Shown piece after piece: positions 4,201 through 28,707 of a stretch of DNA of 28,707 nucleotides. Where the stretch lies: positions 1 to 28,707 of the IMG/VR virus record IMGVR_UViG_3300024348_000186. One strand, written 5' to 3'. A program made the position numbers and the translations under genes. The notes under the pieces are model-generated. The model saw only the letters and a list, made by a program, of their open reading frames with translations, was not told the origin of the DNA and did no database searches. Every line of letters begins with the position of its first letter. Position 1 is the first letter of the stretch. Origin of the DNA: a virus.

Positions 4201-7200
4201 AGGACTACTTTATTTTTACTCCAAGTTATTTAAATAATGGCGTTATGACGCCTTGTGCAAGAACGCAATATAGATTTTCCCAAATTAAAAAAGACTCTGT
4301 GTCTGGCATTGCTAAATCTATATTTAAAGGAATTAAGTTTGTATTTAAAGAGGTCGTGCAAGATACAGTGGAAAAGGAATTATCAGGGGCTCTTAAATAC
4401 GTTAGAGAATCTAATCGTTTTAATAATTATCGCTTTACTTCAATCCTAAAGGTAATAGAAGAGACACCATATTCTGGTGAAAATCCTATTCAATTTAAAT
4501 TTATTGAATCTAAGGACTTTAAATTTATTACACTGGTTATTGAATTAAGAGTTGGTCGTAAATCAAATGCATTGGTTTCTAGTCCAAAGGAATTACTTGT
4601 AACTAAAACTGGTGGACTTTCTCAAAATGAACAACATGCATTTAATAATATATCATCATCATTTTCTGACTATAAACTTAATATAAATCAAATTAGTACT
4701 GCTAATGGGATTCTATCAATTTCTGATATTACCTTAGCATTTATGTATTATGCAAAAAACAAAAAGTATAATACGTTAGACGGCAGCTACAGTAGCATAA
4801 ATCTAGTAAATAGTTTAGATTTATCAAGGCCGGCTGGCTATGGTGACAGAGGTTTACCATTTGTATTTTCTTTAGATAAAGGCTCAGATATTCAAATTGT
4901 TGATGAGATTAGCAAAGTTAGTGTTAATAGCATGTTATCTTATAAGGACTCAGCCGCGCTTAAAGTATTTAGTACAGCTAATCCAGAAGAATTTACGCTA
5001 GATTTTCCAATTAATTCAAACGGACTCTTGTCAAGTGGAGAAGGTCAAGCCTTAACTACCATTACTCTTCCTGGAGGAACTTCACAAGGAATTACTACAA
5101 CTGAAAATAATGCATATGGTGCATCTGGGCTAAGTTTATATCCATTTATTAAAAACCGAATTATTACATCAAACAGTATTAAAGAATCATTTGTTAACCA
5201 AACTGCAATAATTGGAAGTACTCTTAACCCAGCCGTAACTGCTAGTGTAGAAGGAGGTTCTTCGATTATCACGCTAAGCTCAGCTCCAGCCACCGCAATT
5301 TTAATTGGATCTGAAGTTGAAATTGTTGGATGGAGTACGCCTGGAACCAGAGTCAATTCAGTTAATGGCACAGCCGTAACCTTGTCTAAGGCAATTATAT
5401 CAAATATACCAAATCAAAGCCAGCCTGCAGCTATTACATCTGGCTCAGTTGACATCTATTTACAAGCCGGCGCCAATTCAGAATTAGCATCATATGGTGA
5501 TGCAACGGGTTTAAACTATAATGCGTCAAATAAAGTCTATGTAACAGGCACCGGTATTCCAGCCAATGCCTATGTAGTTAGCGTTAATAATGCTGCGCTT
5601 GACGCAAACGGCCAACTTATAACTAAAGTTACGTTATCAGCGGCTGCGACCTCAACTGGACCAGCTATTACTGTTAAATTTTTCCAAAAAAAGACGGCAG
5701 CCCCTATTAATTTTTATCAAGCAGATATTAGCCATGCGCTTGCTACTCAAAACCGGGTAGCGTATTCAGGCAGTACTTTATTAAACGTTATTGATATTTT
5801 AGAATTAAAAAATAAAGCCACTGGCGAAACCGGATATACCTATCCAAATGCACAAGTGCTGGCATCAGAAACAAATTCAGCCTTTAATATTTTAGCTTAT
5901 CCAGGAGATGTAACCAAGAAACTTCTTAGAATAATTAAGCAAACTATTTACAGATTATCAAATGAGTCTGGTATTTCGGAGATTTTGCCAAGCGGTGTTG
6001 TAATGAGGTCTGACTCTGGAATTGGTGAACTTACATTTACCAGTATTCCAACTGCACAAACTGTTTCAGGTGTAACAACCTTTAATCTTGATAAAATTAT
6101 TAAAAGAGAATTAACTATCCCTGCTCTTGATACTAGCTATTGGGAATCAGTAAACTTTGCCCTTTTGCTTGGAGGAGAATCTTATTACAAAGGATTATTT
6201 AAAAGGTTAAGTTTCAATGAGTTTAAGAGATCAATTGATAGAGGCCGAGATAATGTAACCTATACTACATATTCAAATGGGGTAAAAACAACTAGCGAAT
6301 TCTATATTGAAATTGAAGAGGCAACTATGGTTGAAAAATTAAAAATACCAACAATTTCACCAGTTAATATCCAATTGACACAAGCTGAAACTACAAGTAA
6401 AAGACAGGCTTCAAACTTAGTTGGATATACTGCGGCTGAATCATATTTACAGAATCCTGTCTTCTTAAGAAGACACGGCTCAACATATTCGCCTATTTTT
6501 AGAGAAGTTACCGCATTTATGCCAGATACCACTCTAAATTCAGAAATAGTTAAGGATGCAAATTGTAAATTTAATCCAAGCGCAAATCGATTCTTTGAAG
6601 TAAAAGGATTTGAGCATATTAAAGTTTCAGAAAAGAAAATTCTAGAGTTAGAGGGTAGCGATAAGTATAAACCAATCTTTGAATTAATTGGAGAAACTCC
6701 AATATCAAACGGTGACCTTTATCTACTTGCATCAAATTGGGACTATGGCTTCCATTTAGAATATATTAATAAAACTGATTCTATTCCAGCATACGGCACT
6801 CGACGCATAGCCGAAGATTCTTATTTTATGGCTAAACTTGCATCGTTACCGACGTCTATTGAAATCGATTCACTTTCTTCTAGCGAAATACTGGAGTTTC
6901 CATCGATTTCTGCTGACTATATTAATAGAGAGGCTGACGTTTTATACAAAGTAAACACTAGCGACTCTCAAGTTGATATAAACTTAACTAATGTTTTTGC
7001 AGCAAAGGTCTTATCATTAGGCCTAGAATCTCAAATTTCAGGCAGCTTTAATATTGATACAACTGCTAGAAATCCAGAAATACTTGGATCATACGATTTT
7101 TCGTCATACGTTAAACAATATGCAATCGAGAACATTTTACCTAACTATGCAATTGACCAACTTGTATTCTGGTACATAGAAGATAAGAGCCAGCCGACTG

Positions 7201-7372: not shown

Positions 7373-8986
7373 ATGCCAGCACAATTAAATCTTAAAGAGG
7401 TTTTTACAACAGATAGCCAAGCCGTATTGTCAGACAAACTAAATTTTAACTTTACTAAGTTAATTGAATTAGGAATCGGCGATATTGGCCCAAGCGGCCC
7501 TGCCGGTGCGATAGGCGGAATCGGCCCAGCCGGTCAAGTTGGACCTAGAGGAGCAAAGGGCTCTAGAATATTTAGTGGAACAGACCAAACCACCAACACA
7601 ACTGCCATTGTTGACGATATTTTTATTACAACCGGCGGAAGATTCTATACTAAAACTACGACGGCGTGGTCTCAAATATTTAACATAAACGATCTTTTAG
7701 CAGTATCGACTGAGTTCTTTTTAAATAAACAATTATTTACAATTAGTGACACTGATACTACCTTTACTGCAAGTACTAAAAAGAAAAATTATGGAATAGT
7801 AAGATTTTTAAAAAATGCTGGAGCAGACTTAGCTGTCGTCAACCCGGATGGAATAAATTATGGAAGTTCTGCATCAACTTATAATAACTCAACCCTATTT
7901 TTAAATAACTTTGATTTAGACAAATACCAAGCTAACTTTGTTGCAAACGGAAGTGTTGATGCACTAATTACTGATGTTAGTAAAGCAATTACAACAATAT
8001 ATTCAAATTTTGTAACCACATCAGATGAATCAGCTAGTAGATATCACATTCAATTAGGTTCTTTGTATAAATTGCCAAACGGTCAACATCAGATGAGTTT
8101 TTCTGAGAATAACCTTAGAATAAAGCACGCGCTAATAAACAATACGTCTGCTAGTCCAGCTGTTTCTTACTTTCTGTCAGAATTTAATGTAGGTGGAGAT
8201 TCATCGTATACCAATTCAGTTAATGGTGCAACATCAGCCTTTAAGTTTAGAGCATCTCAAATGGATGGATCTGCCCACAATGGAGTTACACTATACACTG
8301 GAGGATCTTCTGCAATTAAAAGTTTTGCTGAAAATGACGCGGTATTTGATATAAATGGACTTTTGCTTGAACGCGCAACTGCTTCTGGTAAAACTCGGCT
8401 TGCGTTTGGAATAGACTCGTTAAACACAGCTCATATTATTACAAAAACTTCGTTTGACATTTGCGCAACTGGTGATATTTCGATTGGAGTATTTGGAACC
8501 GCATTGGGTGATACTAAACAAATTATCGCTAAGCGATTTGGCGCAACTGAAAAAACAACTGCTCTTGGTGTTGGAGGTACCCCCAATTCATCATTAACTG
8601 TATATGGAACTAAGAGTATAGCATCGGCAGTTTCCGATACCCGATATTTGGCAGACCAAGTTAACCTTGGAACAATGACCAAAAATAGTTTACCTTTGTC
8701 TGGTAGCGGACTAACCGAATTATTTGTACCAAGGCAGCCAAATTTAAGTGTTAACGGTAGTGCTGCAACAGCGGCTGGCCTCGCAAGTTATTTAGGATTT
8801 AATTCATATTTTGATGATAATGGAAATATGAACTTTACATATAGAGATGATAGTCCGGCAGGTACGTCTGGAACAGGTTCAGCTTTTATTACAACCCGAG
8901 ATGGTAGCATGCACTTTGTTGCATATTCAAATGATCCAGCTCTAGTTGATACTAACTCCGGATCAAATTCAAACGAATCAGTATAA
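7373..8986 (+). CDS. Collagen-like phage structural protein (537 aa)
   Basis: Residues 1-37 form a short head with the pattern D-K-L-N-F-N-F (about 21-27). A collagen-like run of eight Gly-X-Y triplets follows at about 39-62 (starting GPSGPAG and ending GAKG). The remainder is a long beta-rich, Ser/Thr/Asn-rich region. Collagen-like segments are known in phage tail and fibre proteins, where they trimerise the stalk, so this is probably a trimeric fibre or baseplate appendage. A segment near residues 410-450 (SDTRYLAD, then a Leu-Ser-Gly-Ser-Gly motif) resembles fibre linkers. The last ten residues are Ser/Asn-rich. The start is 2 bases after the stop of the upstream giant gene and has no ribosome binding site of its own, so coupling is likely. 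No S74 or enzymatic domain is seen. Confidence 0.75.
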   Translation: MPAQLNLKEVFTTDSQAVLSDKLNFNFTKLIELGIGDIGPSGPAGAIGGIGPAGQVGPRGAKGSRIFSGTDQTTNTTAIVDDIFITTGGRFYTKTTTAWSQIFNINDLLAVSTEFFLNKQLFTISDTDTTFTASTKKKNYGIVRFLKNAGADLAVVNPDGINYGSSASTYNNSTLFLNNFDLDKYQANFVANGSVDALITDVSKAITTIYSNFVTTSDESASRYHIQLGSLYKLPNGQHQMSFSENNLRIKHALINNTSASPAVSYFLSEFNVGGDSSYTNSVNGATSAFKFRASQMDGSAHNGVTLYTGGSSAIKSFAENDAVFDINGLLLERATASGKTRLAFGIDSLNTAHIITKTSFDICATGDISIGVFGTALGDTKQIIAKRFGATEKTTALGVGGTPNSSLTVYGTKSIASAVSDTRYLADQVNLGTMTKNSLPLSGSGLTELFVPRQPNLSVNGSAATAAGLASYLGFNSYFDDNGNMNFTYRDDSPAGTSGTGSAFITTRDGSMHFVAYSNDPALVDTNSGSNSNESV

Positions 8987-16576: not shown

Positions 16577-17503
16577 ATGAGTTTTACACCAGGACTTCAA
16601 TTACCTTATGGTATTACACCAGTTAACCCGGTTCCAGTCGACGGGTACTCTGGGCCATATGCAACAACAGCTGAAGCATTAGCTAATATTCCACAGGCTA
16701 TTCGATTCCCAACCATGCAGGTCCGAATCGTTAATGGTGATGATAATCAGATGTACTGGTTTAAAGACGGAGTTTTAGATGTAGATCTTATTGAATTTTC
16801 ACCAACCAATGCTAACTTATTAACTTTTGTTGCGCATCTTCAAAATACTTCATGGTTAGTTAATGAAGCCGCTGATTTTAACAGTGGCAATAATGCAAAT
16901 CCAACGATTTATGTTTTTAGAGGAAATATTTACAAATTTAAAGTTGCCTCAAGTATAGGTCACACCCTGCAAATCCGAAGCGCAAATGGCACAGCCTATT
17001 CAGTCGGCATGCCGACTAGCGGTGCCGGTACAAATACTCAAGGTAGCGGCGGCTATATCTTATGGACAGTTCCATTTGACGCGCCAGACGATCTTTTCTA
17101 TGTATGTACGGCTCACCAAAGCGTAATGCGAGGACATATTCGAGTTATTCCAAGTCTGGTTGCACCAATTACTCCAAGTGCTGAACAAGGCAATGCTAAT
17201 CAGGTAACATATACTTCAAATACTGGCAGTTATTCACTAGCATCAAACTCGGCAATTACCAAAGCAATTCATATAGATTCAACCGTGTGTATAAGTATAA
17301 ATGGAGTAAGAAGACTCTTAACAGATTCAAATACGTCTCCTTTCTTTTTTAGCCGAACTGGTGGTATAAATCAATTATTATTAGCTCAAGTGCAGGCAGG
17401 GGATTCACTTTATACGAGGCCTGCATATTTAGAACATGGATTAGAAACCTCTGATCTTATTCTACTTGAATATTTTAGCGGGGGCACAGTTACACTTGCA
17501 TAA
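16577..17503 (+). CDS. Tail structural protein with cupredoxin-like domain (308 aa)
   Basis: Residues about 20-75 hold a short domain with a Y-W-F-K-D-G-V strand at 60-66. Residues about 105-192 form a cupredoxin-like beta sandwich: N-P-T-I-Y-V-F-R-G (108-116), Y-K-F-K-V, G-H-T-L (128-131), then F-Y-V-C-T-A-H-Q-S-V-M ending at 184. The candidate type-1 copper ligands are His129, Cys177, His180 and Met184. The His-Cys distance of 48 is close to plastocyanin (37 to 84), and Cys-x2-His matches; Met is one residue closer than in plastocyanin. I recall this domain in marine phage structural proteins. Residues about 205-308 are a third beta domain with an I-S-I-N-G-V strand. It begins 2 bases after the 743-aa gene. 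The fold is fairly well supported; copper binding is untested. Confidence 0.65.
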   Translation: MSFTPGLQLPYGITPVNPVPVDGYSGPYATTAEALANIPQAIRFPTMQVRIVNGDDNQMYWFKDGVLDVDLIEFSPTNANLLTFVAHLQNTSWLVNEAADFNSGNNANPTIYVFRGNIYKFKVASSIGHTLQIRSANGTAYSVGMPTSGAGTNTQGSGGYILWTVPFDAPDDLFYVCTAHQSVMRGHIRVIPSLVAPITPSAEQGNANQVTYTSNTGSYSLASNSAITKAIHIDSTVCISINGVRRLLTDSNTSPFFFSRTGGINQLLLAQVQAGDSLYTRPAYLEHGLETSDLILLEYFSGGTVTLA

Positions 17504-17555: not shown

Positions 17556-19022
17556 ATGGCACTAATTAAAGGTAAACAACTACAAGATACGTCAGTTTCA
17601 CTAACTAAGCTGAGCGGCGCAACTGGTTCAGTTACGTTAACTACTGGTACAATTACCACACCTGCTGCAAACTTAGTAATAAGTAGCTTACCAATATCTG
17701 GAAGTCAAGCAGCAAACAAAGAATATGTCGATTCGGTTGCAACTGGATTAGATATAAAAAAATCAGTAGTGGCAGTTTATCGCACATCAGTTGCAGCAGC
17801 AGGCGGTACTCCAGCTATATCTACTAACAGCCAGCTAGACGGAGTCGACGCAGATGATGGTAACGTGTATACAGCTATTATCACACAGGCGGATATCAGT
17901 TTCCTTGTACTTGACGGTATTACCATTACCGACGGTGATCGTGTCCTAATTGCAATTTCACCAGGCGGTGTTCGCCAAAAGGTAAATGGTATTTACGTAT
18001 ATCAAGGCAGTAAATTAATTAGAGCCCAAGATGCTGATAACGTAACTGCAAATATTGGAGAAGTTTCTGGCGGATTATTTACCTTTGTTGAGCAAGGAAC
18101 AGTATATGGCGACACTGGTTGGGTATTAAGTTCACCAAACGGAGCAATTAGCGGCCAGACTGGCGCTGCTGGTTTATATGACTTTACCAATAACCCAGCT
18201 GGACTGGTTCAACTTGAATTTACTCAATTCTCTGCAGCCGGTGTTGCTGAAGCTGGTGTTGGTTTAACAAGAACTGGTACCAAATTTAATGTAAACTACG
18301 ACGACTCTTCAATTGGTATTGATGGTGCAGATGCTTTATACATTAAAGCCGACGGTGTAACCAATGCAATGTTGCTGAATGATTACATAAATATTATAGG
18401 AGACGGCGGCGGAAATGGTAATATTGCGCTAGGCGGATCATTAACAATCGCAGGTAATACTGGTATTGATACTTCAATGACTGCAGGTCTATTATCAATT
18501 GACTTAGACCTTTCTGAATTAACTACCGTTACTACAATTGCAGATGCTGACTTTATTGTTACTTCTAGAGCAACCACTCCAGCAAACCAAAAAATTACAT
18601 TTGCTAATCTTAAAACCTTAATTGGAGCTGCTAGTCAGTTAAGTATCAGCGCCGAAGGTGCTACTGCGTCTAGTTTAGATTTAGATACAGATACTTTAGA
18701 TTTTGCAACTGGTCAAGGTTTAACCTTTGCTGCAACAGGCGGTGCTGCTCCTGGTACAACAAATACACTTACCTTAACCGTTAGTAATAATGCACTAAAC
18801 GTTCAACAATCAACTTCATATACAACCGCTGCCTTGGGCAATACTGATATTACGATAACAGCTGCTGCCGAGGTATTTTCAGTTACTATAAACGGAGTAA
18901 TGTTAAAGAAAACTACAAACTGGGTATGGCCGCAGGGTGCAAACACAGTAGTTCGAGTAACAGGATTACCATATGCTCTAGAAGCATCTGATGAAATCGA
19001 AATTACTTATAGAGTAGCTTAA
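17556..19022 (+). CDS. Tail-fibre-type structural protein (488 aa)
   Basis: Residues about 40-190 hold a domain I recognise from many phage tail proteins: A-A-N-K-E-Y-V-D-S-V-A-T-G-L-D-I-K (52-68), then D-G-D-R-V-L-I, N-G-I-Y-V-Y, a Leu-Ile-Arg-Ala-x-D-A-D strand and a (F)-V-E-Q-G-T ... D-x-G-W-V-L strand. The middle is a series of Gly/Thr/Asp-rich beta strands. The C-terminus ends in a small domain with V-T-I-N-G-V-M-L and D-E-I-E-I-T-Y-R-V-A, another common fibre ending. It is therefore likely a trimeric or hexameric tail appendage. Its unit is monocistronic: a NATAAATA box upstream and an intrinsic terminator immediately downstream, suggesting it may be made at its own level. Confidence 0.75.
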   Translation: MALIKGKQLQDTSVSLTKLSGATGSVTLTTGTITTPAANLVISSLPISGSQAANKEYVDSVATGLDIKKSVVAVYRTSVAAAGGTPAISTNSQLDGVDADDGNVYTAIITQADISFLVLDGITITDGDRVLIAISPGGVRQKVNGIYVYQGSKLIRAQDADNVTANIGEVSGGLFTFVEQGTVYGDTGWVLSSPNGAISGQTGAAGLYDFTNNPAGLVQLEFTQFSAAGVAEAGVGLTRTGTKFNVNYDDSSIGIDGADALYIKADGVTNAMLLNDYINIIGDGGGNGNIALGGSLTIAGNTGIDTSMTAGLLSIDLDLSELTTVTTIADADFIVTSRATTPANQKITFANLKTLIGAASQLSISAEGATASSLDLDTDTLDFATGQGLTFAATGGAAPGTTNTLTLTVSNNALNVQQSTSYTTAALGNTDITITAAAEVFSVTINGVMLKKTTNWVWPQGANTVVRVTGLPYALEASDEIEITYRVA

Positions 19023-19047
19023 TTTAACTATTAAATATTTTTTAAAT

Positions 19048-19075
19048 AAGAGCCTCCTTTATGGAGGCTTTTTTA
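19048..19075 (+). terminator. Rho-independent terminator
   Basis: The arms AGCCTCC (19051-19057) and GGAGGCT (19063-19069) form a perfect 7-bp stem with a 5-base loop, extendable by GU and AU pairs. A run of six T follows directly. It starts 26 bases after the stop of the 488-aa gene and is the only clear terminator in the window. Confidence 0.9.
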
Positions 19076-19098
19076 TTATTCAAAGTCAAAACTTGGAG

Positions 19099-19106
19099 TA
19101 TAAATA
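19099..19106 (+). promoter_or_regulatory. Candidate late promoter box TATAAATA
   Basis: A perfect match to the T4 late-promoter box, placed between the terminator at 19048-19075 and the ATG at 19133 with a 26-base spacer. This is the strongest promoter call in the window because the terminator forces a new start here. Confidence 0.65.
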
Positions 19107-19132
19107 TCTATAGAAAAGATACAAACTCATAA

Positions 19133-19561
19133 ATGGCTCAAGTTAAACTAAAACAAGTTAATATCAGTACTCACATGACGTATAACGAAACGTCTGGAGA
19201 TATTAGTCATAATGGTAATTTTTCAGCTGTTACCAAGCAGTTCTTAATTGACCATCCAACCAAGCCAGGTTTTAAACTTGCGCACGGTAACTTAGAAGGC
19301 CCCGAACATGGCATCTACCTTAGAGGAAAGAGTGAAGCTAAACGTATCTTTTTTCCAGAATATTGGGCAAGCTTAGCAAACGCGGACTCAATCACAGTTA
19401 CAATTACACCATTCGGTAAATCTCAATCGTTGTGGATTAAACATATTACTGATACTTATTTTGAAGTAGCAGGCTCGCACAAGCCAACTTTTTTTTATTT
19501 AGTGCAGGCTGAACGTAAAGATGTTAAACCATTACAAATTGAGATAGACATGAATAAATAA
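19133..19561 (+). CDS. Stand-alone fibre-associated domain protein (142 aa)
   Basis: A compact domain with F-L-I-D-H-P-T-K-P-G (38-47), a G-N-L-E-G-P-E-H-G-I-Y-L-R-G block (52-65), F-P-E-Y-W (74-78), S-I-T-V-T-I-T-P-F-G-K (86-96) and A-E-R-K-D-V (125-130). I recognise this block from the C-terminal part of many phage tail-fibre proteins, where it commonly sits near an S74 chaperone or forms the fibre end. Here it is a separate gene of 142 residues. It may be a fibre tip or accessory protein working with the fibre encoded next. It has its own TATAAATA promoter, and its stop codon overlaps the promoter box of the following fibre gene. Confidence 0.7.
   Translation: MAQVKLKQVNISTHMTYNETSGDISHNGNFSAVTKQFLIDHPTKPGFKLAHGNLEGPEHGIYLRGKSEAKRIFFPEYWASLANADSITVTITPFGKSQSLWIKHITDTYFEVAGSHKPTFFYLVQAERKDVKPLQIEIDMNK
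19553..19560 (+). promoter_or_regulatory. Candidate late promoter box AATAAATA overlapping a coding end
   Basis: AATAAATA lies inside the last codons and stop of the 142-aa gene, 22 bases before the GTG at 19583. It would drive fibre 1 and fibre 2. The Asn-Lys-stop codons could produce the string by chance, but spacing agrees with the other five boxes. Confidence 0.45.
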
Positions 19562-19582
19562 TTCAAATAGTCTATTACATAC

Positions 19583-22500
19583 GTGGCGCAAACGGTCAAG
19601 ATAACTCCCGCATCCGGTTTATTAGAATTCATAGGTAATACTACGTCGAACAAACCGTATCTACAGCATGATGATAATGGCAATCTTACATTAACTCTAC
19701 AGGCGACTAAAAAATTCACAGTTGCCGGCAATCTTAAGGTTAATGGTAAGGTTACAATGGCTCAGCAAACCCTGACTGATGGCGCAGCTATTACTTGGGA
19801 CTTTAACTCTGGAGCAAATGCAAAGGTAACCATTGCTGGAGCTAGAACGTTAGTACTTTCCAATATGGAAACTGGCGATACTGGTTTAATCTTAGTTAAA
19901 CAAGATGCAGCCGGTAGCCGAACCCTAACCCTGCCAGGCTCAAGTTCAATTGTTGGCGGCGGTACCTATACAGCTTCGCCTGCAGCCGGTGCAACCGATG
20001 TCTTAGGCGTTTACTATGATGGTACAACTTATTGGTGGACGATTGGTTATAATACAGTATCGCCGCCCATAACTTCAATTGGAATTACTGGTGCAGATTT
20101 TACAATTGCAAACTCACCATTAACAGCAAACGGCAATATAGGATTAGCCTTAGCAACAGTTAACTCAACAGTTGGAACATTTGGTTCAGCGACAGCAGTG
20201 CCCGTAATTACAGTTAATGCCAAAGGTTTAGTTACTGCAGTATCTGCAACTAATATTTCAATTCCAACAAACTTAGACAGCTTAACTGATGTTACAATAA
20301 CATCGGCTGCTACTGGTCAATTATTACAATTTAATGGATCACAATGGGTTAATTGGACTCCAAATTATATTACTTTAACTTCTTTAAGTGGAAGCACAGG
20401 TATTAGTTATAACAATACAACTGGTGCTATTAGTTCTACAATAACACAATATACAGATGCTTTGGCTAGAGCTGCTCATAGCTTTACGGCAGGCAGTGGC
20501 GCGTATAACGCTACAACTGGAGTTATAACAATACCTACGAATACTAATCAGTTAACAAATGGTGCAGGTTACATCACGTCTTATGCAGAAACAGATACCC
20601 TTGCAAGCGTAACTGGTCGAGGCGCAACCACAAATACGGCTTCTGTATTTGCAGGCGGATTATACGCGCGAAAAGCTCAAGGTGACGGCGATTATACAAC
20701 AGCAGCTCTTTGGACTGAATCATATAACAACACAACGACCGGTATAGCATTTCATATTAGTGGCGTGGTTGGTAAGTTCTTGGAAATGAGGCTAGACCAA
20801 AGACTATATTGGGATAACTCACAAGTATGGACCGCAGGCAACTTAACTAACCTAAACCAATTATCAAATGGTCCGGCTTATATTACAACGGCTGCTCTTT
20901 CTGGATATGCAACTCAAACCTACGTAAACACAGCTGTTTCTAACTTGGTTGCATCGGCACCTAGTACACTAGACACACTTAACGAATTAGCTACCGCATT
21001 AGGTAATGATGCTAATTTTGCTACCACAATTACCACATCAATAGGAAACAAAGTTTCTAAGAGTGGTGATACAATGACTGGTAATCTTGCCTTTGGCGCA
21101 ACCTCTGGATTAGGCCTTACTTGGGGATTAAACACAGATGCCGCATTTATTAAATTTATATCAACCGGCAACCAGGCTGGAGGATCTTACCTTGAAATTG
21201 GTACACAGGATGACTCAAACGAAGAAATTAAGTTTACTCAATCTGGAGTTCTTAAATTTTATTTAGCAACTGACGGTAATTTAAAAACTGGCTCAGGTTA
21301 CAATTACGTTTGGGAAAACGGCACTTGGGCAATTGGTATTTCTGGAAACGCTGCTACAGCAACCAATGTAGCATGGACTGGAGTAACAGGCAGACCTACT
21401 GCTCTTTCTCAATTCTCTAATGACTTAGGAAACTATGGAGGCTGGCTAACTCAAGCAGCAGCTAATCCACTATATGTTAATGTGGGTGGAGACACAATGA
21501 CTGGACCTTTAGTAATTACTGGTTCAACTAGCGGCCAGGAATTATTTGCAGTAAACGGAGTTAACGGCAGACTGTTCACAGTAAGTGATGATCTTTCAAA
21601 TTCTTTATTTTCAGTAAATACTGTAGCCGGTCTTCCTGTAATCGAAGCCTTTGCCAATAATACTGTTAATATTGGACCTTTTTCTGCGCCTATTGTAATT
21701 AATGCAAGTGGAATCTCTACGCCAAGTCATGGTACTTCCGCGAATTGGAATTCTGCATATAATGATACAATAACTTCAGCTGCAGTTAGTGGAACAACCT
21801 CAAAAACCCTAACTCTTACTCAAAGAGATGGAGGCACAGTAACTGCAACGTGGACAGATATCGATACCGATACAAATACTGATGCTCAGACATTAAGTGT
21901 TAGTGGATCAACTCTTACCATTAGCGGAGGTAACTCAATTACTTTGCCAACCGGCGGTATTTCACAAGCAACAGCAGACGGGCTATACGTTAATATAAGT
22001 GGAGATGAAATGACAGGAAATCTGTATATTTCTCCAATTAGTGCTAACCCAGCACAAATTCAATTAGCTGGATCTAATCCAGAATTATATGTTAGTGCTA
22101 AAACTGGAACTGCCAGGGTATTCATTAGCCGACAAGGAACAGGGCATCAAGCAACGCTGATGTTTATGACTGGCATGGGCACATATCAAGGAACTGCTTG
22201 GGATTACACAGGAGCACCAATGTGGTCGATGGGAATGACCAATAATGCTAATACTAATAGTTTTAAACTTGGATATGGCGATATTTATGATCCAACTGTA
22301 GTTGCACTTGAAATAACTACTGCAAATACTGCGTATTTTAAATATGTACCATATGCAGCCGGAAACCTATTAGCAACTCAATCATGGGTAACTTCTCAGG
22401 GTTACATAACTGGTTACACTGAGACTGATACTCTAGCGAGTGTAACAGGTAGAGGCGCAACCACGTCAACTGCTTTATCTTTAAATGGAAAAGTTACTTT

Positions 22501-24724
22501 TTCAAGTACAGTTGCAAATAGGCCACAATTCCCTGGTGGTATTTTAGGATTAGATACAAGCGATGGCAACTTTGATATATGGGGTATTTCTAGAGACTAT
22601 TATCCATCTCATCCAACTCCACAAAATGCATGGGGTTTAAGATGGAATGGTGACAATAATGATTTTGAATTCGTAGGCGCTGGAACTAGCCGAGTTATTT
22701 TAGATATGGACGGTGGTAATATTACAACTACTGGGAAAATAAGTGTAGGCACAACATACGCAGGATTTGCTGCTAACATAGCAGGAACGGTGTACATAAT
22801 AGGTGGAGATTTATTTTTATCTGATGGATATTTAGTTAGAAATGCTTCAAATAATTCAAGTATAGCATTTAATAATTCTGCATTATCGTTTACAGGAGCT
22901 GCTACGTTTAGTTCAACTATTTCTGCTTCTAACTTTAGTGGTACACATAGTGGAGCATCTTCAGGAACCAATACTGGAGATCAAACAAATATTTCGGGTA
23001 ATGCAGCGACTGCGACCTATGCAACATCAGCTGGTAATGCTGCTACGGCTGGATATTCAGATGAAGCAAAATGGATTTCTTTTCCAGACGGACCGAGAGA
23101 TTTAAGTGACAGATTACCAAACTGGAATAATAGGTCGGTAGCTTGGGATTTTGTTGGTGCCGGTACAGCAAATGGTTCTGGAAACTACGGTGGTGTAATG
23201 ACATTTTCACCATGGGATGGTACAAGTGGAAGTACTGGAGACTCATCTTATCAACTTGCCTTTGCTAATACTACAGGTGTAAATGCTAGTGGACAACCTA
23301 AACTTAGTATTAGAAACGGAATTAATTCTACTTGGAATGCTTGGTATACACTTATCCATTCTGGTAATATTGGTTCGCAATCTGTAAGCTATGCTACTAC
23401 AGCAGGTGCTCTAACATCAATGAATATCTCGCAGTTTACTAATAACTCTGGATATTTAACTTCAGTATCAGACATTTGGGTTGACCTTGCAGGTGATACT
23501 ATGACCGGTATTTTAAGATCTAGTTATAATACAGCAACCGGTATCGCAAACAATGGATTTAATGTTGCCAAAACAATTATTGGTAATTTTCATATTCGAA
23601 ATGGTAACGGCACAAGCGGCAATAATGCTCAGGCTGCTATTACTTTCCAAGGAGGAGCTGCCGGAGAAGCCCAAGCAGGTATTTATGTTTCAAATAATGA
23701 TAGTACTGGAACAGCAATGGGATTTGCAACTACAGATTCTTATTCAACCGGTCCACAATTATTTATGGCTGCTACGTGTTTTGGTGTTGTCAATTTTCCA
23801 AGAGCTACTCCTACTGTTCAAGGTAATACTGTATGGCATGCAGGAAATGATGGAGCTGGTTCTGGATTAGATGCAGATTTACTAGATGGATATACTTCAG
23901 ATACTGCAGCAAACGTAAATACAATTGTACGAAGAGACTCTAGTGGAAATATCTATTCAAACTACGTCTTAGGGTCTTATTTTAATGCTTCTGCTGGTAA
24001 CTCAGAAAACCCAACAATTGGTCAAATTTGGACACAAAATACAAGCGATAACTACTTAAGAAAATCTACGCCCGGTCACTTTAGAAGTCAGGTTACAGAT
24101 AGCTACTACTTATCACTAAGTGGCGGTACCCTTAGCGGAAACTTAAATATTATCGGCGAACTTGCATTTAGAGACGGAGCTGGAGGCTATTCTAATATAA
24201 TTCGAGCAGCAGCTTATCCAAGCGAAGGTTATCCAAATGGTACTAATTATTGGATGGAATACCGTGCATACGGTGGACATCATTTTGTCCTAAATACAGA
24301 CGGCGGAGTAGGCGGCGGTGCAAATACAATGGATGATTTCGTTATATGGCAAGGTGCAATTGATGGAGACCGTTTACTTGAAGTAAGTAATACTGGAACC
24401 CTAACAATCGCAGATCGATTAATAGAATTATCTTCTATCAGATATAAAACTCAAGTTGAGTCCTTAACTCCAGCTCTAGATAAAGTCTTACAACTAAGAC
24501 CAGTTCACTATGTTAAAATTGGTGGAACTGGCGAAACTGAAATTGGTTTAATTGCGGAAGAGGTTGCTGAAATCTATCCTGAATTAGTTAAATATAATAG
24601 TGAAGGTCAAGTTGATGGTATTAACTATACCCGTATTGCGCCAATCTTAATTAAGACAATTCAAGAACAGCATGAAATAATTAAAAAATTAACCGAGAGA
24701 ATTGAAAATCTTGAAAATAGATAA
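19583..24724 (+). CDS. Giant tail fibre protein 1 with C-terminal S74 chaperone (1713 aa)
   Basis: The start is GTG: an in-frame TAG at 19568 precludes a longer form, the next Met is at residue 59, and the M-A-Q start matches its neighbours. Residues 1-160 form a known phage domain (T-D-G-A-A-I-T-W-D-F, then L-I-L-V-K-Q-D-A-A-G-S-R-T-L-T-L-P, and Y-D-G-T-T-Y-W-W). The shaft carries five (G)-D/G-T-M/L-T/S-G linkers and modules A-G shared with fibre 2. About 200 residues before the chaperone lies an A-D-L-L-D-G-Y-x-S-D motif typical of long tail fibres. Residues 1617-1713 are an S74 intramolecular chaperone: S1617-S-I-R-Y-K (SxxRxK; Ser the likely self-cleavage residue), a GLIAEEV-x-x-I-Y-P-E-L-V motif and a C-terminal coiled coil. 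Mature fibre would lose this domain after trimer folding. Confidence 0.85.
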   Translation: MAQTVKITPASGLLEFIGNTTSNKPYLQHDDNGNLTLTLQATKKFTVAGNLKVNGKVTMAQQTLTDGAAITWDFNSGANAKVTIAGARTLVLSNMETGDTGLILVKQDAAGSRTLTLPGSSSIVGGGTYTASPAAGATDVLGVYYDGTTYWWTIGYNTVSPPITSIGITGADFTIANSPLTANGNIGLALATVNSTVGTFGSATAVPVITVNAKGLVTAVSATNISIPTNLDSLTDVTITSAATGQLLQFNGSQWVNWTPNYITLTSLSGSTGISYNNTTGAISSTITQYTDALARAAHSFTAGSGAYNATTGVITIPTNTNQLTNGAGYITSYAETDTLASVTGRGATTNTASVFAGGLYARKAQGDGDYTTAALWTESYNNTTTGIAFHISGVVGKFLEMRLDQRLYWDNSQVWTAGNLTNLNQLSNGPAYITTAALSGYATQTYVNTAVSNLVASAPSTLDTLNELATALGNDANFATTITTSIGNKVSKSGDTMTGNLAFGATSGLGLTWGLNTDAAFIKFISTGNQAGGSYLEIGTQDDSNEEIKFTQSGVLKFYLATDGNLKTGSGYNYVWENGTWAIGISGNAATATNVAWTGVTGRPTALSQFSNDLGNYGGWLTQAAANPLYVNVGGDTMTGPLVITGSTSGQELFAVNGVNGRLFTVSDDLSNSLFSVNTVAGLPVIEAFANNTVNIGPFSAPIVINASGISTPSHGTSANWNSAYNDTITSAAVSGTTSKTLTLTQRDGGTVTATWTDIDTDTNTDAQTLSVSGSTLTISGGNSITLPTGGISQATADGLYVNISGDEMTGNLYISPISANPAQIQLAGSNPELYVSAKTGTARVFISRQGTGHQATLMFMTGMGTYQGTAWDYTGAPMWSMGMTNNANTNSFKLGYGDIYDPTVVALEITTANTAYFKYVPYAAGNLLATQSWVTSQGYITGYTETDTLASVTGRGATTSTALSLNGKVTFSSTVANRPQFPGGILGLDTSDGNFDIWGISRDYYPSHPTPQNAWGLRWNGDNNDFEFVGAGTSRVILDMDGGNITTTGKISVGTTYAGFAANIAGTVYIIGGDLFLSDGYLVRNASNNSSIAFNNSALSFTGAATFSSTISASNFSGTHSGASSGTNTGDQTNISGNAATATYATSAGNAATAGYSDEAKWISFPDGPRDLSDRLPNWNNRSVAWDFVGAGTANGSGNYGGVMTFSPWDGTSGSTGDSSYQLAFANTTGVNASGQPKLSIRNGINSTWNAWYTLIHSGNIGSQSVSYATTAGALTSMNISQFTNNSGYLTSVSDIWVDLAGDTMTGILRSSYNTATGIANNGFNVAKTIIGNFHIRNGNGTSGNNAQAAITFQGGAAGEAQAGIYVSNNDSTGTAMGFATTDSYSTGPQLFMAATCFGVVNFPRATPTVQGNTVWHAGNDGAGSGLDADLLDGYTSDTAANVNTIVRRDSSGNIYSNYVLGSYFNASAGNSENPTIGQIWTQNTSDNYLRKSTPGHFRSQVTDSYYLSLSGGTLSGNLNIIGELAFRDGAGGYSNIIRAAAYPSEGYPNGTNYWMEYRAYGGHHFVLNTDGGVGGGANTMDDFVIWQGAIDGDRLLEVSNTGTLTIADRLIELSSIRYKTQVESLTPALDKVLQLRPVHYVKIGGTGETEIGLIAEEVAEIYPELVKYNSEGQVDGINYTRIAPILIKTIQEQHEIIKKLTERIENLENR
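20567..20632 (+). repeat. Fibre module A (three copies)
   Basis: A 22-residue unit beginning GYIT and containing ETDTLASVTGRG. Other copies: 22400-22465 in fibre 1 and 26320-26385 in fibre 2. In fibre 2 it follows module G directly, whereas in fibre 1 neither copy does. Confidence 0.85.
20918..21088 (+). repeat. Fibre module B (two copies)
   Basis: A 57-residue unit containing LDTLNELA and ALGNDA and ending in a TMTG linker. The second copy, at 24817-24987 near the N-terminus of fibre 2, has exactly the same length. The DNA shares only short exact tracts. Confidence 0.85.
21365..21445 (+). repeat. Fibre module C (two copies)
   Basis: A 27-residue unit beginning NVAWTGVT and ending DLGNYGGW. 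The second copy is at 26932-27012 in fibre 2, same length. Module D follows in fibre 1; in fibre 2 the same unit is followed by unrelated sequence. Confidence 0.85.
21470..21676 (+). repeat. Fibre module D (two copies)
   Basis: A 69-residue unit opening with the LYVNxxGDTMTG linker, then NGRLFTV and SVNT. The second copy is at 27658-27864 in fibre 2, same length. It precedes module E in fibre 1 but follows E in fibre 2. Confidence 0.85.
21788..22018 (+). repeat. Fibre module E (two copies)
   Basis: A 77-residue unit containing KTLTLTQ, DIDTDTNTD and SISGGNS-type strands, ending in an LYVNxSGDxMTG linker. The second copy is at 27463-27693 in fibre 2, same length. Its closing linker is the same motif that opens module D. 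Confidence 0.85.
22931..23011 (+). repeat. Fibre module F (three copies)
   Basis: A unit reading NFSG ... SSGTNTGDQTNISG. Other copies: 26857-26925 and 28153-28209, both in fibre 2. This first copy has a 4-residue insertion after NFSG relative to the first fibre 2 copy. Confidence 0.85.
23366..23461 (+). repeat. Fibre module G (two copies)
   Basis: A 32-residue unit containing GSQSVSYATT and NISQFTNNSGY. The second copy is at 26236-26331 in fibre 2, same length. It is the most similar of the paired modules at protein level, with only a few substitutions. Confidence 0.85.
24431..24721 (+). other. S74 intramolecular chaperone domain (self-cleaving)
   Basis: Codons for residues 1617-1713 of fibre 1. 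The SxxRxK motif opens the domain; G-L-I-A-E-E-V and Y-P-E-L-V follow, then a heptad-like helix ending in E-N-L-E-N-R. In the S74 family (T5 fibre, endosialidases) this part trimerises the fibre and is then cleaved at the leading Ser. No second copy is visible in fibre 2 before the window ends. Confidence 0.85.
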
Positions 24725-24729
24725 CTAAT

Positions 24730-27700
24730 ATGGCACAATTAATATCAGGAACTACAATTGCTGGACACAGCGCGATCCATGCTGGAAACCTATCGGCTCA
24801 CAGCATTGCGACAACGTCTTATGTTACAACGCAAATTAATAACTTAATTAATGGTGCCCCTGGAGCGCTAGATACTCTTAACGAGTTGGCCGCTGCATTA
24901 GGTAATGATGCTGGTTTTTCAACAACAATTACAAATTCAATTGCTAGCAAATTATCACTAAGCGGTGGTACCATGACGGGTAATATTAATTGGGGACAAA
25001 CCGATCGCGGTCTTGTTTGGAGTATGAATACAGATGGTGCCTATATTAAATTTTTTAATACTGGAGATGGAGATACTAATTCAAGACTAGAATATGCAAC
25101 ATCTGATAATGGCGATGAATATCATAGATTTTTAGTAGCTGGAATTGAAAGAATGACAATTACCGCAAATGGTATTTCTGCAACAGGTTATAATAAATCA
25201 AATTGGGACACTGCATATGGATGGGGTAACCATGCTGGATTATACTCAGCAGCTTCGCATAATCACGATGGAAGATACTTATTACTTTCAGGAGGAACCT
25301 TAACCGGCGACCTGCTTTCAACTCATCCATACTACCCAGGTTATAATAATGCAGCCGTTGGTTCACAAGGTTCTTATTACCTATATGGTGCCACTGGAAA
25401 TTCTGGTATTAGAACTAATGGTAATTTCTTAGCCAATGGAGATATTTACTTAGGAACTAGAGGACAATGGCTTTCTACTTATCTAAATCAAAATGTTAGA
25501 ACAGATAGCTCACCATCATTTAGTAGCGTATACGTAGGCGGCTCTCAATTAACTGGAACTCAAGTTAATGGCTTATCTAATATGCTTGGTGTTACAACTC
25601 TACCCTATTCATGTGATATTACAGTCGGCGGCGACCCAGACAAATTTTATGCTGTTCAGTTTTGGGGAGGAGATCAAGATGTTTGGAGAAGAATTATTAT
25701 TAAAAGAGGATATGGCGAAACCGCGCCTTGGGATCCAATTGGAACAGGTGCACACCATGGCGGTCTTCTATTAGATTGGGAAGGTAATTTTGGCGGATGG
25801 GGCGGTGCCGAATATGCAGATCGATTAAGAGTATTTAATGAATCATATACAAATGTCTGTGCAGATATGTTTATCTACAGTCATTCAATGAGTTATGTGT
25901 TTATGCTTAGGGGTGGTGGAGCAGTTTATCACCTATTTTCTGATCAACCAATTAATGGTTATTACCAAGCAGGTTCGCCTGATATTTTATATAGTTCAAG
26001 TACATTATCGTATGACGATGCATGGTCTGGTACAAATCAATATGATGTTTATGCTCCTACACCTTTAGCGCTTAATCAGGTTAACTCAACAAGAATTGAC
26101 GGTCTTAGAACTAAAAAGCAATCTCTTTTAGATGGTAGATATGCAGCAATCTCGCATTCGCATACATTTGCTTCATTAACAAGTAAACCAACTACAATTA
26201 GTGGTTATGGAATTACAGATGCGATTACTACAGCAAACATTGGGTCTCAATCTGTAAGTTACGCTACTACATCGGGTGCGTTAACTTCCATGAATATTTC
26301 TCAATTTACAAATAACTCTGGTTATATTACAGGATATACAGAAACAGACACTTTAGCTAGTGTAACAGGTCGTGGGAATACTACAACTAGCTCAATGGCT
26401 ATTGGTTCTGTGTCTATTCCTAATGGTAAATTATATGTCAATAGTGGATCTGGGTCAGATGTTGTTGCATTACAAAATACTCTCAATACAGGGGCGTATT
26501 TAGTATTTGCTGATAATGTTACTCCAACTTGGGCTAACGCTCCAAGACTAGGTGCTATTAGCAATGACATGGTGTTTAAAACACTTGATACTGAGCGTTT
26601 TAGAATAGCATCTACAGGTGCATCTACATTTACTGGACCTTCTTTAACAATAAACACTACAAGTGATATAGTTGCTAATGGTGACACCTTCCGTATGAAA
26701 GGTGGTGGAGGCTCTGCTGAATTTATATGGTATAGAAATTACTCAGGTAGTCCTTCTGAACCTGGTTTTGTAATTAATAATAGAGCAGGTACTACTACAT
26801 TTAGCCATAATGTAAATGGAGGTGGTACAAGTGTAAGTGGTAATTTTTCTGCTGCTAACTTTAGTGGAGCATCCTCTGGAACCAATACTGGAGATCAGAC
26901 AAATATTTCTGGTAATGCAGCAACAGCTACTAATGTAGCTTGGACAGGAGTAACTAGTAGACCTACGACATTGTCTCAGTTTACAAATGATTTAGGTAAC
27001 TATGGCGGTTGGATTACAGGTTATACTGAAACTATTGGTACCAATAATACCTCTGGTGTTGCTGGCGCAAAATATCAAATTAATGACACTTGGTTACGGG
27101 TTAACAGTGATAACCGTCAATTTCAAATATATGGAAATGCTAGATCCATTATCTATCGAACCGATGGTGTAACCAATGACCATGGAGGAGGAGATTATCC
27201 TCACATATTCTACTACGGTGGTTCGACTGATGCTTCGCGCCTTGTTATATTTGGAACTAATGGCGATATTTGGATGCGATACGCTGGAGACTGGATTTCC
27301 AACCTATTGGCTGCTAAATCGAATACAGGTCACACTCATGATGACAGATACTATACAGAAACTGAGGTTAATAATTTCTTTAGTGCTGCAACTGCAATTA
27401 CAGGTTATAACAAATCAAATTGGGATATTGCCTATAATAAGAGACCTACTGCAATTTCATTTAGTGGTACTGGTACAAAAACCTTAACCTTAACTCAAGG
27501 AGATGGTTCAACCTTAACTGCTGCGTTTAATGATATTGATACAGATACAAATACTGACGGCCAAACCCTAAGTCTTAGTGGAAATACCCTAAGTATTTCA
27601 GGCGGAAACTCAGTTACTCTTACTTCGGGTGGAATATCACAAGGCACAGCAGACTCACTTTACGTTAATGTAAGTGGAGATACAATGACTGGTCCATTAA

Positions 27701-28707
27701 ATATAGTAGGATCAACCGACGGTCAAGATCTGCTTGCAGTTAATGGTTTTAATGGTAGACTTTTTACCGTAACGGATTCAGTTCTTGATACAATTTATAG
27801 CGTTAACACAATTGCAGGTTTACCTATTTTAGAGGTACTTGCAAATAATACAGTTAGAATAGGTAAATATGGTGCAAATTCTATTACCATTGCAAATAGT
27901 AATATTGCAATCAATAGTGATTCAGTTGATGCTAAATTTCCATTTTACGTAAGCGATAGAAGTACTGCTACGGCTAGATATAATTTAACTAATCCTGGTA
28001 TGGGATTCAACCTAGCTGACTCCTATGCTCAGCTACAACTATACGGAACAGCCGGTGCATATATTGACTTTACAACAGGTGCAAATGATTATCAAGGTCG
28101 AATTATGTGGACAGGTTCAGCATTTTCGATTACTGGAAATATATCAGCAACAAACTTTAGCGGTTCCTCTTCTGGTACCAATACCGGAGACCAAACTAAT
28201 ATTTCAGGTACAGCTAGTAATATTACAGCATATACAATTAATCAAAGTGTTGGAACAGGTAACGCCCCTACATTTACAAATATTTACAATAATGGGTGGT
28301 TCCGAAATAATAATAACCTAGAAGGTCTCTATAATCAGGCAAATGGCAACCACTTTTATTCAAGAGGTGCTGCTAAATGGGGTATAACTGGAGCAGGCGG
28401 AAATATCCATCTAGAATTCAGAAGTAATCATGAATCAACCCTTAGAGGAGTAGTCTATGCCGATACAAGTAATCAAATTGGATTCCTTAATAATGGAGAA
28501 GGCTGGTCACTAAGAGCTAATAGTAGTAATAATGTATTTGTTCATGGAACAGATCTTACAATAAATGCAGATGGTGCCGGCTCATCAAATATCAATATGA
28601 ATGATGGTGATGAAGGTAATCGTATTATTCACTGTAACTCAAACCGTATTGGATTCTTAACTCAAGCTGGAAGCTGGGGAGCATATTGTGATGATAGTGG
28701 TAACTGG
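24730..28707 (+). CDS. Giant tail fibre protein 2, 3'-truncated by the window edge
   Basis: An ATG 5 bases after fibre 1 opens a frame of 1326 codons with no stop to the last base, so the C-terminus lies outside. The N-terminus (M-A-Q-L-I-S-G-T-T-I-A-G-H-S-A-I-H-A-G-N) lacks the 160-residue head of fibre 1. It carries the same modules B, G, A, F, C, E and D in a different order, three SG-(G/D)-T-(M/L)-T-G linkers, and three His-x-His motifs (H177/H179, H476/H478, H868/H870) like those that bind iron in T4 gp37. Residues about 285-450 (W-G-G-D-Q-D-V-W and following) are unique and not recognised. The visible end is a module with G-W-S-L-R-A-N-S-S and N-R-I-G-F-L-T-Q-A-G-S-W-G, known from phage fibre proteins. 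It has no promoter box and is probably cotranscribed with fibre 1. Confidence 0.85.
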   Translation, partial: MAQLISGTTIAGHSAIHAGNLSAHSIATTSYVTTQINNLINGAPGALDTLNELAAALGNDAGFSTTITNSIASKLSLSGGTMTGNINWGQTDRGLVWSMNTDGAYIKFFNTGDGDTNSRLEYATSDNGDEYHRFLVAGIERMTITANGISATGYNKSNWDTAYGWGNHAGLYSAASHNHDGRYLLLSGGTLTGDLLSTHPYYPGYNNAAVGSQGSYYLYGATGNSGIRTNGNFLANGDIYLGTRGQWLSTYLNQNVRTDSSPSFSSVYVGGSQLTGTQVNGLSNMLGVTTLPYSCDITVGGDPDKFYAVQFWGGDQDVWRRIIIKRGYGETAPWDPIGTGAHHGGLLLDWEGNFGGWGGAEYADRLRVFNESYTNVCADMFIYSHSMSYVFMLRGGGAVYHLFSDQPINGYYQAGSPDILYSSSTLSYDDAWSGTNQYDVYAPTPLALNQVNSTRIDGLRTKKQSLLDGRYAAISHSHTFASLTSKPTTISGYGITDAITTANIGSQSVSYATTSGALTSMNISQFTNNSGYITGYTETDTLASVTGRGNTTTSSMAIGSVSIPNGKLYVNSGSGSDVVALQNTLNTGAYLVFADNVTPTWANAPRLGAISNDMVFKTLDTERFRIASTGASTFTGPSLTINTTSDIVANGDTFRMKGGGGSAEFIWYRNYSGSPSEPGFVINNRAGTTTFSHNVNGGGTSVSGNFSAANFSGASSGTNTGDQTNISGNAATATNVAWTGVTSRPTTLSQFTNDLGNYGGWITGYTETIGTNNTSGVAGAKYQINDTWLRVNSDNRQFQIYGNARSIIYRTDGVTNDHGGGDYPHIFYYGGSTDASRLVIFGTNGDIWMRYAGDWISNLLAAKSNTGHTHDDRYYTETEVNNFFSAATAITGYNKSNWDIAYNKRPTAISFSGTGTKTLTLTQGDGSTLTAAFNDIDTDTNTDGQTLSLSGNTLSISGGNSVTLTSGGISQGTADSLYVNVSGDTMTGPLNIVGSTDGQDLLAVNGFNGRLFTVTDSVLDTIYSVNTIAGLPILEVLANNTVRIGKYGANSITIANSNIAINSDSVDAKFPFYVSDRSTATARYNLTNPGMGFNLADSYAQLQLYGTAGAYIDFTTGANDYQGRIMWTGSAFSITGNISATNFSGSSSGTNTGDQTNISGTASNITAYTINQSVGTGNAPTFTNIYNNGWFRNNNNLEGLYNQANGNHFYSRGAAKWGITGAGGNIHLEFRSNHESTLRGVVYADTSNQIGFLNNGEGWSLRANSSNNVFVHGTDLTINADGAGSSNINMNDGDEGNRIIHCNSNRIGFLTQAGSWGAYCDDSGNW

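Follow-up and report, generated by a model that had tools for sequence, protein, structure and literature searches.

The two fibre genes

The DNA analysed here, referred to as the window, is a stretch of 28,707 nt (IMG/VR record IMGVR_UViG_3300024348_000186). It carries, separated by 5 nt, two long tail fibre genes of a large uncultured phage, fibre 1 (F1) and fibre 2 (F2), which have their chaperone family in common; a relation to tail fibres is shown by PHROG tail-fibre profiles. The genes and their main parts are as follows.

19133..19561, +, 142-aa gene directly upstream of F1, present in close relatives too
19583..24724, +, F1, long tail fibre of 1713 aa (open reading frame; PHROG tail-fibre families; S74 domain)
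19583..20374, +, N-terminal anchor of F1, residues 1-264, collinear in relatives (DNA and protein identity with relatives)
24431..24592, +, S74 intramolecular chaperone domain of F1 (Pfam PF13884, E 2.5e-11)
24730..28707, +, F2, first 1326 aa (open reading frame open at the contig end; complete, with 2079 aa, in L009:15148-21387)

With its reading frame cut by the contig end, F2 encompasses at least 1326 aa inside the window; its complete form, including a C-terminal S74 chaperone at residues 1982-2035 (E 9.9e-12), is provided by L009, a near-identical contig that differs at a single position over 19,125 overlapping bases. Long tail fibres that end in an S74 domain are generally trimers from which the chaperone is freed by autoproteolysis. 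In L010, L012 and L013/L014, three distinct relatives, the anchor of F1 retains 84-95% DNA identity; protein identity in relatives is 88-97%, and the distal part is variable. The N-termini of F1 and F2 belong to different classes (6 and 0).

Shared modules in permuted order

Seven kinds of modules, designated A to G, are common to F1 and F2, as delineated by an ungapped comparison of F1 with the complete L009 version of F2, in which residue numbers are identical to those of the window. Thirteen segments reach a score of at least 93, and three of these lie in F2 past the window; the chance maximum was 76 when the residues of F2 were shuffled 30 times and 77 with reversed F2. Among these segments are E (F1 720-836/F2 896-1012, score 340, 59% identity), D (F1 620-702/F2 967-1049, score 280, 63%), B (F1 443-507/F2 27-91, score 208, 63%), C (F1 586-623/F2 726-763, score 189, 89%) and G (F1 1258-1297/F2 499-538, score 158, 78%), along with A (F1 310-353/F2 512-555, score 127; F1 935-967/F2 526-558, score 117) and F (F1 1111-1151/F2 700-740, score 120; F1 1123-1148/F2 1144-1169, score 93). 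Module positions derive from this segment comparison, with further or other evidence given in brackets.

20366..20375, +, 10-nt joint in the YIT word, at which L010 has 1680 extra nt (overlap of two 93-95% identical blocks)
20558..20641, +, module A in F1, first copy (GYIT.Y.ETDTLASVTGRG)
20888..21319, +, module B in F1 (model with a helical part, then a beta part; mean pLDDT 59)
21338..21451, +, module C in F1
21440..21688, +, module D in F1
21740..22090, +, module E in F1, terminating in the D joint word (also model of the F2 E-D pair)
22385..22483, +, module A in F1, second copy, at whose end the replaced block of L010 starts (also comparison with relatives)
22472..23810, +, block of F1 instead of which L010 has a different 400-nt block (comparison with L010)
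22913..23035, +, module F in F1
23354..23473, +, module G in F1
24781..25212, +, module B in F2
26224..26343, +, module G in F2
26305..26403, +, module A in F2
26827..26949, +, module F in F2, first copy
26905..27018, +, module C in F2
27415..27765, +, module E in F2
27628..27876, +, module D in F2
28159..28236, +, module F in F2, second copy

The original prediction had read the module order as A-B-C-D-E-A-F-G-chaperone in F1 and as B-G-A-F-C-E-D-F in F2; self-alignment reproduces both orders exactly, above the shuffled null, and the sharing of modules between the two fibres is a real observation. The assumption that copies of B, C, D, E and G are equal in length is strictly true of C, E and G, while B comprises 144 aa in each fibre with small compensating indels and the aligned stretches of D, 117 versus 118 aa, differ by one residue. 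DNA identity between the two genes is limited to 71% over 275 nt, 88% over 74 nt and 81% over 95 nt, as had been noted from the sequence. Equally, the view that this is not a simple gene duplication is upheld by N-termini of different classes and by the lack of a collinear match across both proteins. D and E overlap via a common joint word, LYVN..GD.MTG, so that a swap of D-E versus E-D passes through a common end.

Module B of both fibres matches in sequence the collar fibre of 9d93, and module B of F1 weakly matches 6v8i (E 0.009). The model of the F2 E-D pair has a mean pLDDT of 65, with residues 11-50 at pLDDT 82-93; a Foldseek search of this model against the PDB gave nothing below E 0.99.

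Rearranged blocks in close relatives

In related phages, modules have been acquired, dropped or relocated in entire blocks, for the most part through exchange with other phages and occasionally between the two neighbouring fibres. L009 and L010 share 96.0-98.0% identity in four of five upstream genes and 89.4% in the remaining one; their F1 is the same gene except for one block of 1680 nt, which is extra in L010, and one replaced block, with joints located in the short linker words TATATTACTT, the A word and WHAGNDGAGSG, one joint being a 10-nt identity. Nucleotides 5239-5925 of F2 in L009, before the chaperone, are without DNA match in L010. Between L082 and L083 a shared block has moved (96.9% over 292 nt), and L058 and L064 have common blocks in a changed order. 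Rearranged forms recur across separately numbered assemblies, with L010 and L011 identical over 26,488 nt and L013 and L014 over 7,517 nt. The presence, absence and replacement of whole blocks in L009 and L010, together with moved blocks in other relatives, bear out the proposal that modules shift as units; a fixed order, which would speak against it, was not seen, the order varying among the related phages compared.

The peptide patterns with which the fibre set was fetched, from among the matches listed, bias its composition. Near-identical contigs were merged; L058 and L269 are one contig, equally L056 and L272, and both pairs were counted as separate ORFs in the module nearest-relative and 40-aa window comparisons. 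Four loci with internal tandem repeats (L116, L084, L071 and L087) were excluded from block-end tests, the same-contig block count and codon comparisons, with their peptides still serving as background in word scores. Same-contig blocks in L116 reach up to 88% over 78 nt and 85% (84.9) over 119 nt.

Block ends lie in words with at least three other contig groups in 150 of 185 cases versus 653 of 1110 interiors (Wilcoxon 4e-7); per contig group, the preference of ends over interiors, which is insecure, is found in only 13 of 20 (sign test 0.26). An earlier control, with positions anywhere in the fibre (402/536 ends vs 1357/2680), was too easy. The same-codon fraction is 0.444 in words versus 0.472 in the rest of the module (random draw of 150 of 1964 HSPs), and over 42 pairs of words and module bodies the mean difference is 0.001 (p 0.99). 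Since the DNA of the words is no more conserved than that of module bodies, the words do not have the appearance of special sites for DNA recombination. This role of the linker words was rejected on their same-codon level, which equals that of the bodies, and on an end enrichment non-significant per contig group.

Probable exchange between neighbouring slots and with a pool common to phages

A block characteristic of one fibre slot is found in the neighbouring slot in L014 and L010 only, and the donor may have been the fibre of another phage. Residues 1893-2092 of F1 in L014 form an F2-type E-D block in F2 order, 79% identical to residues 855-1054 of F2 in L009, with 71% same codons, close to the baseline of 76% in the F1 anchor. 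Towards its far end the F2-like stretch is less clearly delimited: same codons amount to 59% at residue 2115 and 42% at residue 2330, with L088 as the best match at residues 2240-2300. The assignment as F2-type is based on order, collinearity and identity; taken singly, AU tests do not reject a grouping of the E or D copy of L014 with F1 (p 0.137 and 0.213), and the concatenated E+D tree, in which both placements of the L014 row occur as branches, does not discriminate between them. F2 of L010 carries an F1-type C, for which the AU test rejects pairing with C of L009 F2 (p 0.0024) and which is 88% identical to F1 of L009 and 85% to its own F1.

In the L009-type F1 and F2, 122 of 270 codons (45%) are the same over eight segments, with 0.45 expected from codon usage, and 141 of 305 upon addition of two more F pairs. 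As the shared blocks are synonymously saturated, a recent exchange between F1 and F2 is unsupported in this genome, apart from a single short C-like stretch that the window does not contain (30 aa; F1 592/F2 1441 in L009; 0.73 of 22 codons the same). Somewhat less saturated than L009 are the within-genome copies of D in L010 (33/54 same codons, p 0.013) and of E in L012 (0.62 of 56).

Among 53 same-contig fibre pairs, DNA blocks that reach 100 nt with 85% identity or above are common to the members of only one, and none attains 90%; the count is without the four repeat-rich loci and is equally one pair with them included. Blocks of this kind number 125 within the same N-terminal class on different contigs and 70 between different or unknown N-terminal classes on different contigs, as compared to one inside a contig. 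Among the ORFs of the 305 loci fetched, the best non-orthologous match of 40-aa windows lies in other phages for 61 of 84 windows of F1 (71 less 10 matching L026, an F1 orthologue) and for 87 of 102 of F2; the other fibre of the own genome or of relatives provides it for 8 and 11 windows, and 5 and 4 are without match. With most windows best matched by fibres of other phages, the main source of modules appears to be a pool common to phages.

The idea that adjacent paralogues recombine is supported in part, by slot exchange in L014 and L010, but not as a recent event in this genome, given the saturation.

Discussion

The best overall explanation, to which we assign a probability of roughly 0.8, is that of modular fibres subject to block recombination mainly with other phages, with exchange between neighbours being rarer. 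In each fibre, a fixed anchor at the N-terminus would be followed by a long shaft, whose exchangeable modules are connected by short linker words that recur, and by a tip carrying the S74 folding chaperone at the C-terminus. Recombination at short shared stretches, often the linker words, might insert, delete, replace and reorder modules in frame, with fibre genes of other phages that possess the same parts as probable main partners and co-infection as the conceivable occasion; exchange with the neighbouring slot would be rarer and, in this genome, not recent. An altered shaft length or receptor binding may be the benefit, and a change of host range, as originally predicted, is conceivable.

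That recombination between F1 and F2 within a genome is instead the main source of new fibres, as originally predicted, is unlikely. The F2-type E-D in F1 of L014 and the F1-type C in F2 of L010 argue for it, as do the raised same-codon counts for D in L010, E in L012 and the 30-aa stretch in L009 and the occurrence of near full-length D only in this clade and L237/L238 among the matches listed. The synonymous saturation in this genome is set against it, and DNA identities between F1 and F2 are alike within and across L009 and L010 (68 and 70% versus 67 and 70% for E; 62 and 67% versus 65 and 63% for D). Furthermore, C in F2 of L010 is closer to F1 of L009 than to its own F1, and the copies of B and G are each closer to other phages. 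Same-contig HSPs above codon expectation at p<1e-4 amount to 0 of 191 versus 106 of 12,671 for different classes; with under two expected and short HSPs of little power, this count does not show a deficit.

A tandem duplication of one fibre gene with subsequent divergence and internal rearrangement is highly improbable: the genes adjoin and share the chaperone family, but N-termini of different classes, the different nearest relatives of the B, C and G copies and the missing collinearity contradict it. Still less credence is given to programmed switching by an invertase shufflon or another site-specific system; relatives do show alternative distal parts, but positions 19000-28707 contain only five pairs of inverted repeats, short or imperfect, and no invertase or recombinase is among the PHROG matches of 13 proteins of the window, itself a fragment, with 4 of the 13 unmatched. 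The resemblance of Ser/Thr/Gly-rich fibre repeats by chance or biased composition, which can yield a reversed-sequence match of score 77, has next to no probability in view of 13 segments scoring 93-340 and of blocks that fibres of different classes have in common with 85-97% DNA identity.

Block recombination of modular fibres has precedents. In a study from 1998, short conserved motifs reportedly flank exchanged segments in the tip; short flanking motifs are seen here too, whereas exchange also extends throughout the shaft and the words show no particular conservation at DNA level. Domain mosaicism of phage receptor-binding proteins, in the part of the work considered here, involves fragments common to otherwise unrelated proteins and recent shuffling among close relatives (Smug et al., 2023; PMC10684548). 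Both are seen here, the former in the 70 blocks across N-terminal classes. Unlike the tail-fibre example therein, a C-terminal swap with a conserved N-terminus, order and number of shaft modules change in the present fibres and a relative has a module of one slot in the adjacent one. Neighbouring tailspike genes of Ackermannviridae equally recombine, with a chimera between tsp4 and an added tsp5 (PMC11414711); that case, as far as the source was consulted, is a laboratory construct sharing sequence with tsp4, while the present exchange is deduced from natural relatives and concerns several short shaft modules. Conserved DNA motifs around tailspike domains in six lytic genera, proposed to aid recombination between genera (PMC10408124), are similar as short conserved stretches, but in the sections at hand they span 20-95 bp around the receptor-binding domain, whereas the words here recur along the shaft. 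Mosaicism of T4-type fibre genes is treated as well in what was considered of PMC2993671 and PMC12619734. In the literature searched, of which few papers were examined closely, none was found on permuted modules between neighbouring fibres. Shuffling of fibre modules is already known, and the present case is a legible member.

Tentatively, and with considerable doubt, the block recombination of fibres can be extended to several lineages of aquatic phages, with Bacteroidota as probable hosts, that would possess one common kit of fibre modules with ends compatible in any order. A fibre might then be regarded as an open-ended sentence, with neighbouring slots as additional sites of storage and exchange and with shaft, tip and chaperone evolving separately. 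While the well-known mosaicism of tail fibres consists mostly of tip swaps, here shaft modules have been moved, removed and crossed between neighbouring slots. The set of relatives constitutes a natural test bed for the compatibility of modules, the permitted joints and the role of shaft versus tip in the choice of bacteria.

Two adjacent fibre genes with permuted modules

The 28,707-base virus record, probably a fragment of a larger genome, ends in two giant tail-fibre genes, separated by 5 bases:

19583-24724, F1, second-last open reading frame of the window, 1713 aa
24730-28707, F2, last open reading frame, open at the window end

A domain search located an S74 chaperone at the C-terminal end of F1. 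Completed from contig L009, which shows one mismatch across the 19,125 overlapping bases, F2 has a full length of 2079 aa, also with S74. Structural genes lie upstream, with one protein clearly matching a baseplate wedge/fibre connector family (E 1.3e-17) and another, more weakly, a head-closure family (E 1.9e-7). The 308-aa protein encoded at 16577-17503 has a PHROG baseplate wedge/tail fibre connector match at residues 103-193 and a sub-threshold match to a plastocyanin-like copper-binding family, with counterparts in the related contigs L012 and L013 being about 120 residues longer. The 537-aa protein of 7373-8986 contains a short collagen-like Gly-X-Y run near residues 36-66, and the 488-aa protein of 17556-19022 is 89.4% identical between L009 and the related contig L010, with its neighbours at 96-98%.

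The original prediction had read modules A to G in the order A-B-C-D-E-A-F-G-chaperone in F1 and B-G-A-F-C-E-D-F in F2. Comparison of F1 with complete F2 reproduced letters and order exactly in 13 ungapped segments (scores 93-340; chance maximum 76-77), with a D-E to E-D swap via a common joint word among the differences in order, and the observation of permuted modules is thereby confirmed. The proposed equal length is strict for C, E and G, while B and D carry small indels. Structure models suggest, with modest confidence, that module B is helical, then beta-stranded, and that the start of E is a compact helix-plus-strand unit.

Gain, loss and replacement of blocks in close relatives

Scans with F1, a 142-aa gene and complete F2 identified, among the matches listed, a close group consisting of L009 (S1), L010 = L011 (S2), L012 (S3), L013 (S4) and L014 (S5), with S4 and S5 identical across a 7,517-nt overlap. 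Between S1 and S2, four of five upstream genes are 96.0-98.0% identical and the fifth 89.4%. In F1, nt 1-793 are common (95%), after which S2 holds 1680 extra nt; S1 784-2889 aligns with S2 2464-4569 (93%), in place of S1 2890-4228 there are 400 nt of different sequence in S2, and the ends beyond match at 93%. In F2, the anchor and several blocks are common, and no DNA match to S1 nt 5239-5925, before the chaperone, was found in S2 F2. So module content varies among otherwise nearly identical phages.

The gene following F2 (L009:21389-22702) encodes a 437-aa protein with a sub-threshold C-terminal Pretoxin HINT match; its DNA identity to the L010 counterpart is 71.5%, with four of five upstream genes at 96-98%. 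At L014:11074-16107 (S5), F1 is separated by four genes, one with a methyltransferase domain, from a short S74 fibre of 511 aa, which occupies the place of F2.

Possible exchange between neighbouring fibre slots and the age of module sharing

In module trees, each copy of B and of G, in F1 as in F2, lies closer to other phages, and E separates into an F1 and an F2 group (support 100/100). F1 of S5 (2875 aa) carries both E types, F1-type at 1579 and F2-type at 1935, the latter with 88% DNA and 94% protein identity to S1 F2 and followed by D, in F2 order. Residues 1893-2092 are 79% identical to S1 F2 855-1054, versus 59% to S1 F1 for 1923-2050. The F2-like stretch uses the same codon as S1 F2 in 71% of identical residues, close to the 76% seen between the F1 anchors of S1 and S5; further on, less clearly F2-like, same codons with S2 F2 amount to 59%, 71% and 42% at 2115, 2199 and 2330, and L088 is the best match for 2240-2300. 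AU tests on S5 E alone and D alone did not reject alternative placement (p 0.137, 0.213). Module C of S2 F2 is F1-type: the protein is identical to that of S1 F1 across 36 residues, the DNA is 88% identical to S1 F1, 85% to its own F1 and 73% to S1 F2, and grouping with S1 F2 is rejected (AU test, p 0.0024). The donor of these crossed modules may have been an F1- or F2-type fibre of another phage, not the neighbour gene.

Within S1, eight shared F1/F2 segments use the same codon in 122 of 270 identical residues (45%; 0.45 expected from codon usage), or 141/305 with two further F pairs; module sharing in this genome is old. A C-like stretch of 30 aa at F2 1441, beyond the window, is an exception (0.73 of 22 residues). 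Copies within S2 (D, 33/54, p 0.013; E, 33/59, p 0.06) and S3 (E, 0.62 of 56) are slightly less saturated. Segment pairs (HSPs) above codon expectation at p<1e-4 numbered 0/191 on the same contig, 106/12,671 between and 205/1614 within N-terminal classes; as fewer than two were expected on the same contig, no deficit is proven. The interpretation that modules move and are exchanged between neighbours is partly supported: modules of the other slot's type occur in S5 and S2, but in the genome for which it was proposed the sharing is old.

A wider pool of fibres and the nature of the joints

The comparison set comprised 124 fibre ORFs, drawn from 75 contig groups. DNA blocks with a length of at least 100 nt and at least 85% identity numbered 125 in the same N-terminal class on different contigs, 70 between different or unknown classes and 1 within one contig. 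By fibre pair, with four repeat-rich loci left out, such blocks occur in 64/180, 52/6651 and 1/53, respectively, so pairs on one contig show no shortage of blocks relative to unrelated pairs. S1 F2 matches, in its distal part, a class-2 fibre of L056 (86% across 827 nt), S2 F2 1597-1835 matches L067 6166-6404 (96.7%), and permuted blocks were seen in L082/L083 and L058/L064. When 40-aa windows of S1 were compared with the ORFs of 305 loci, and the orthologous gene was set aside, the best match came from other phages in 61/84 for F1 (71 less 10 matching L026, an F1 orthologue) and 87/102 for F2.

The 2708-aa fibre of L116:14491-22617 has many internal direct repeats (80-91% DNA identity), an alternative way of building a long shaft. 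L058 and L269 come from the two ends of a single 122-kb contig, and the L058 fibre gene is open into the contig end, so this genome may be circular, cut inside the fibre gene.

In-frame exchange at short common stretches is consistent with the S1/S2 joints, the first in F1 being a 10-nt identity coding YIT and the remaining ones lying in the A word, one of the recurrent linker peptides, and in WHAGNDGAGSG. Block ends fell in widely recurrent words in 150/185 cases versus 653/1110 for interiors. That words are DNA sites kept for recombination is disfavoured, as this preference was inconsistent by contig group (13/20) and DNA conservation of words did not exceed that of modules; the words are accordingly better regarded as protein joints tolerant of exchange.

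Likely host and relation to known systems

A 2040-aa upstream protein has matches in 30 phage records (15 Prevotella, 6 uncultured huge, 5 Tenacibaculum, 2 Sphingomonas, 2 Chryseobacterium), and F2 relatives occur in bacterial genome records at 11 loci, including two Flavobacterium, one Chitinophagaceae and one Limnobacter. Judged from these records of relatives, the host is likely to belong to the Bacteroidota.

Receptor-binding proteins are already known to show domain mosaicism (PMC10684548), neighbouring tailspike genes to recombine in a laboratory phage (PMC11414711), and exchange motifs to be conserved (PMC10408124). The F1/F2 locus is of the same kind and a further example of this known phenomenon, in which shaft permutation and crossing between neighbours are unusually easy to see.
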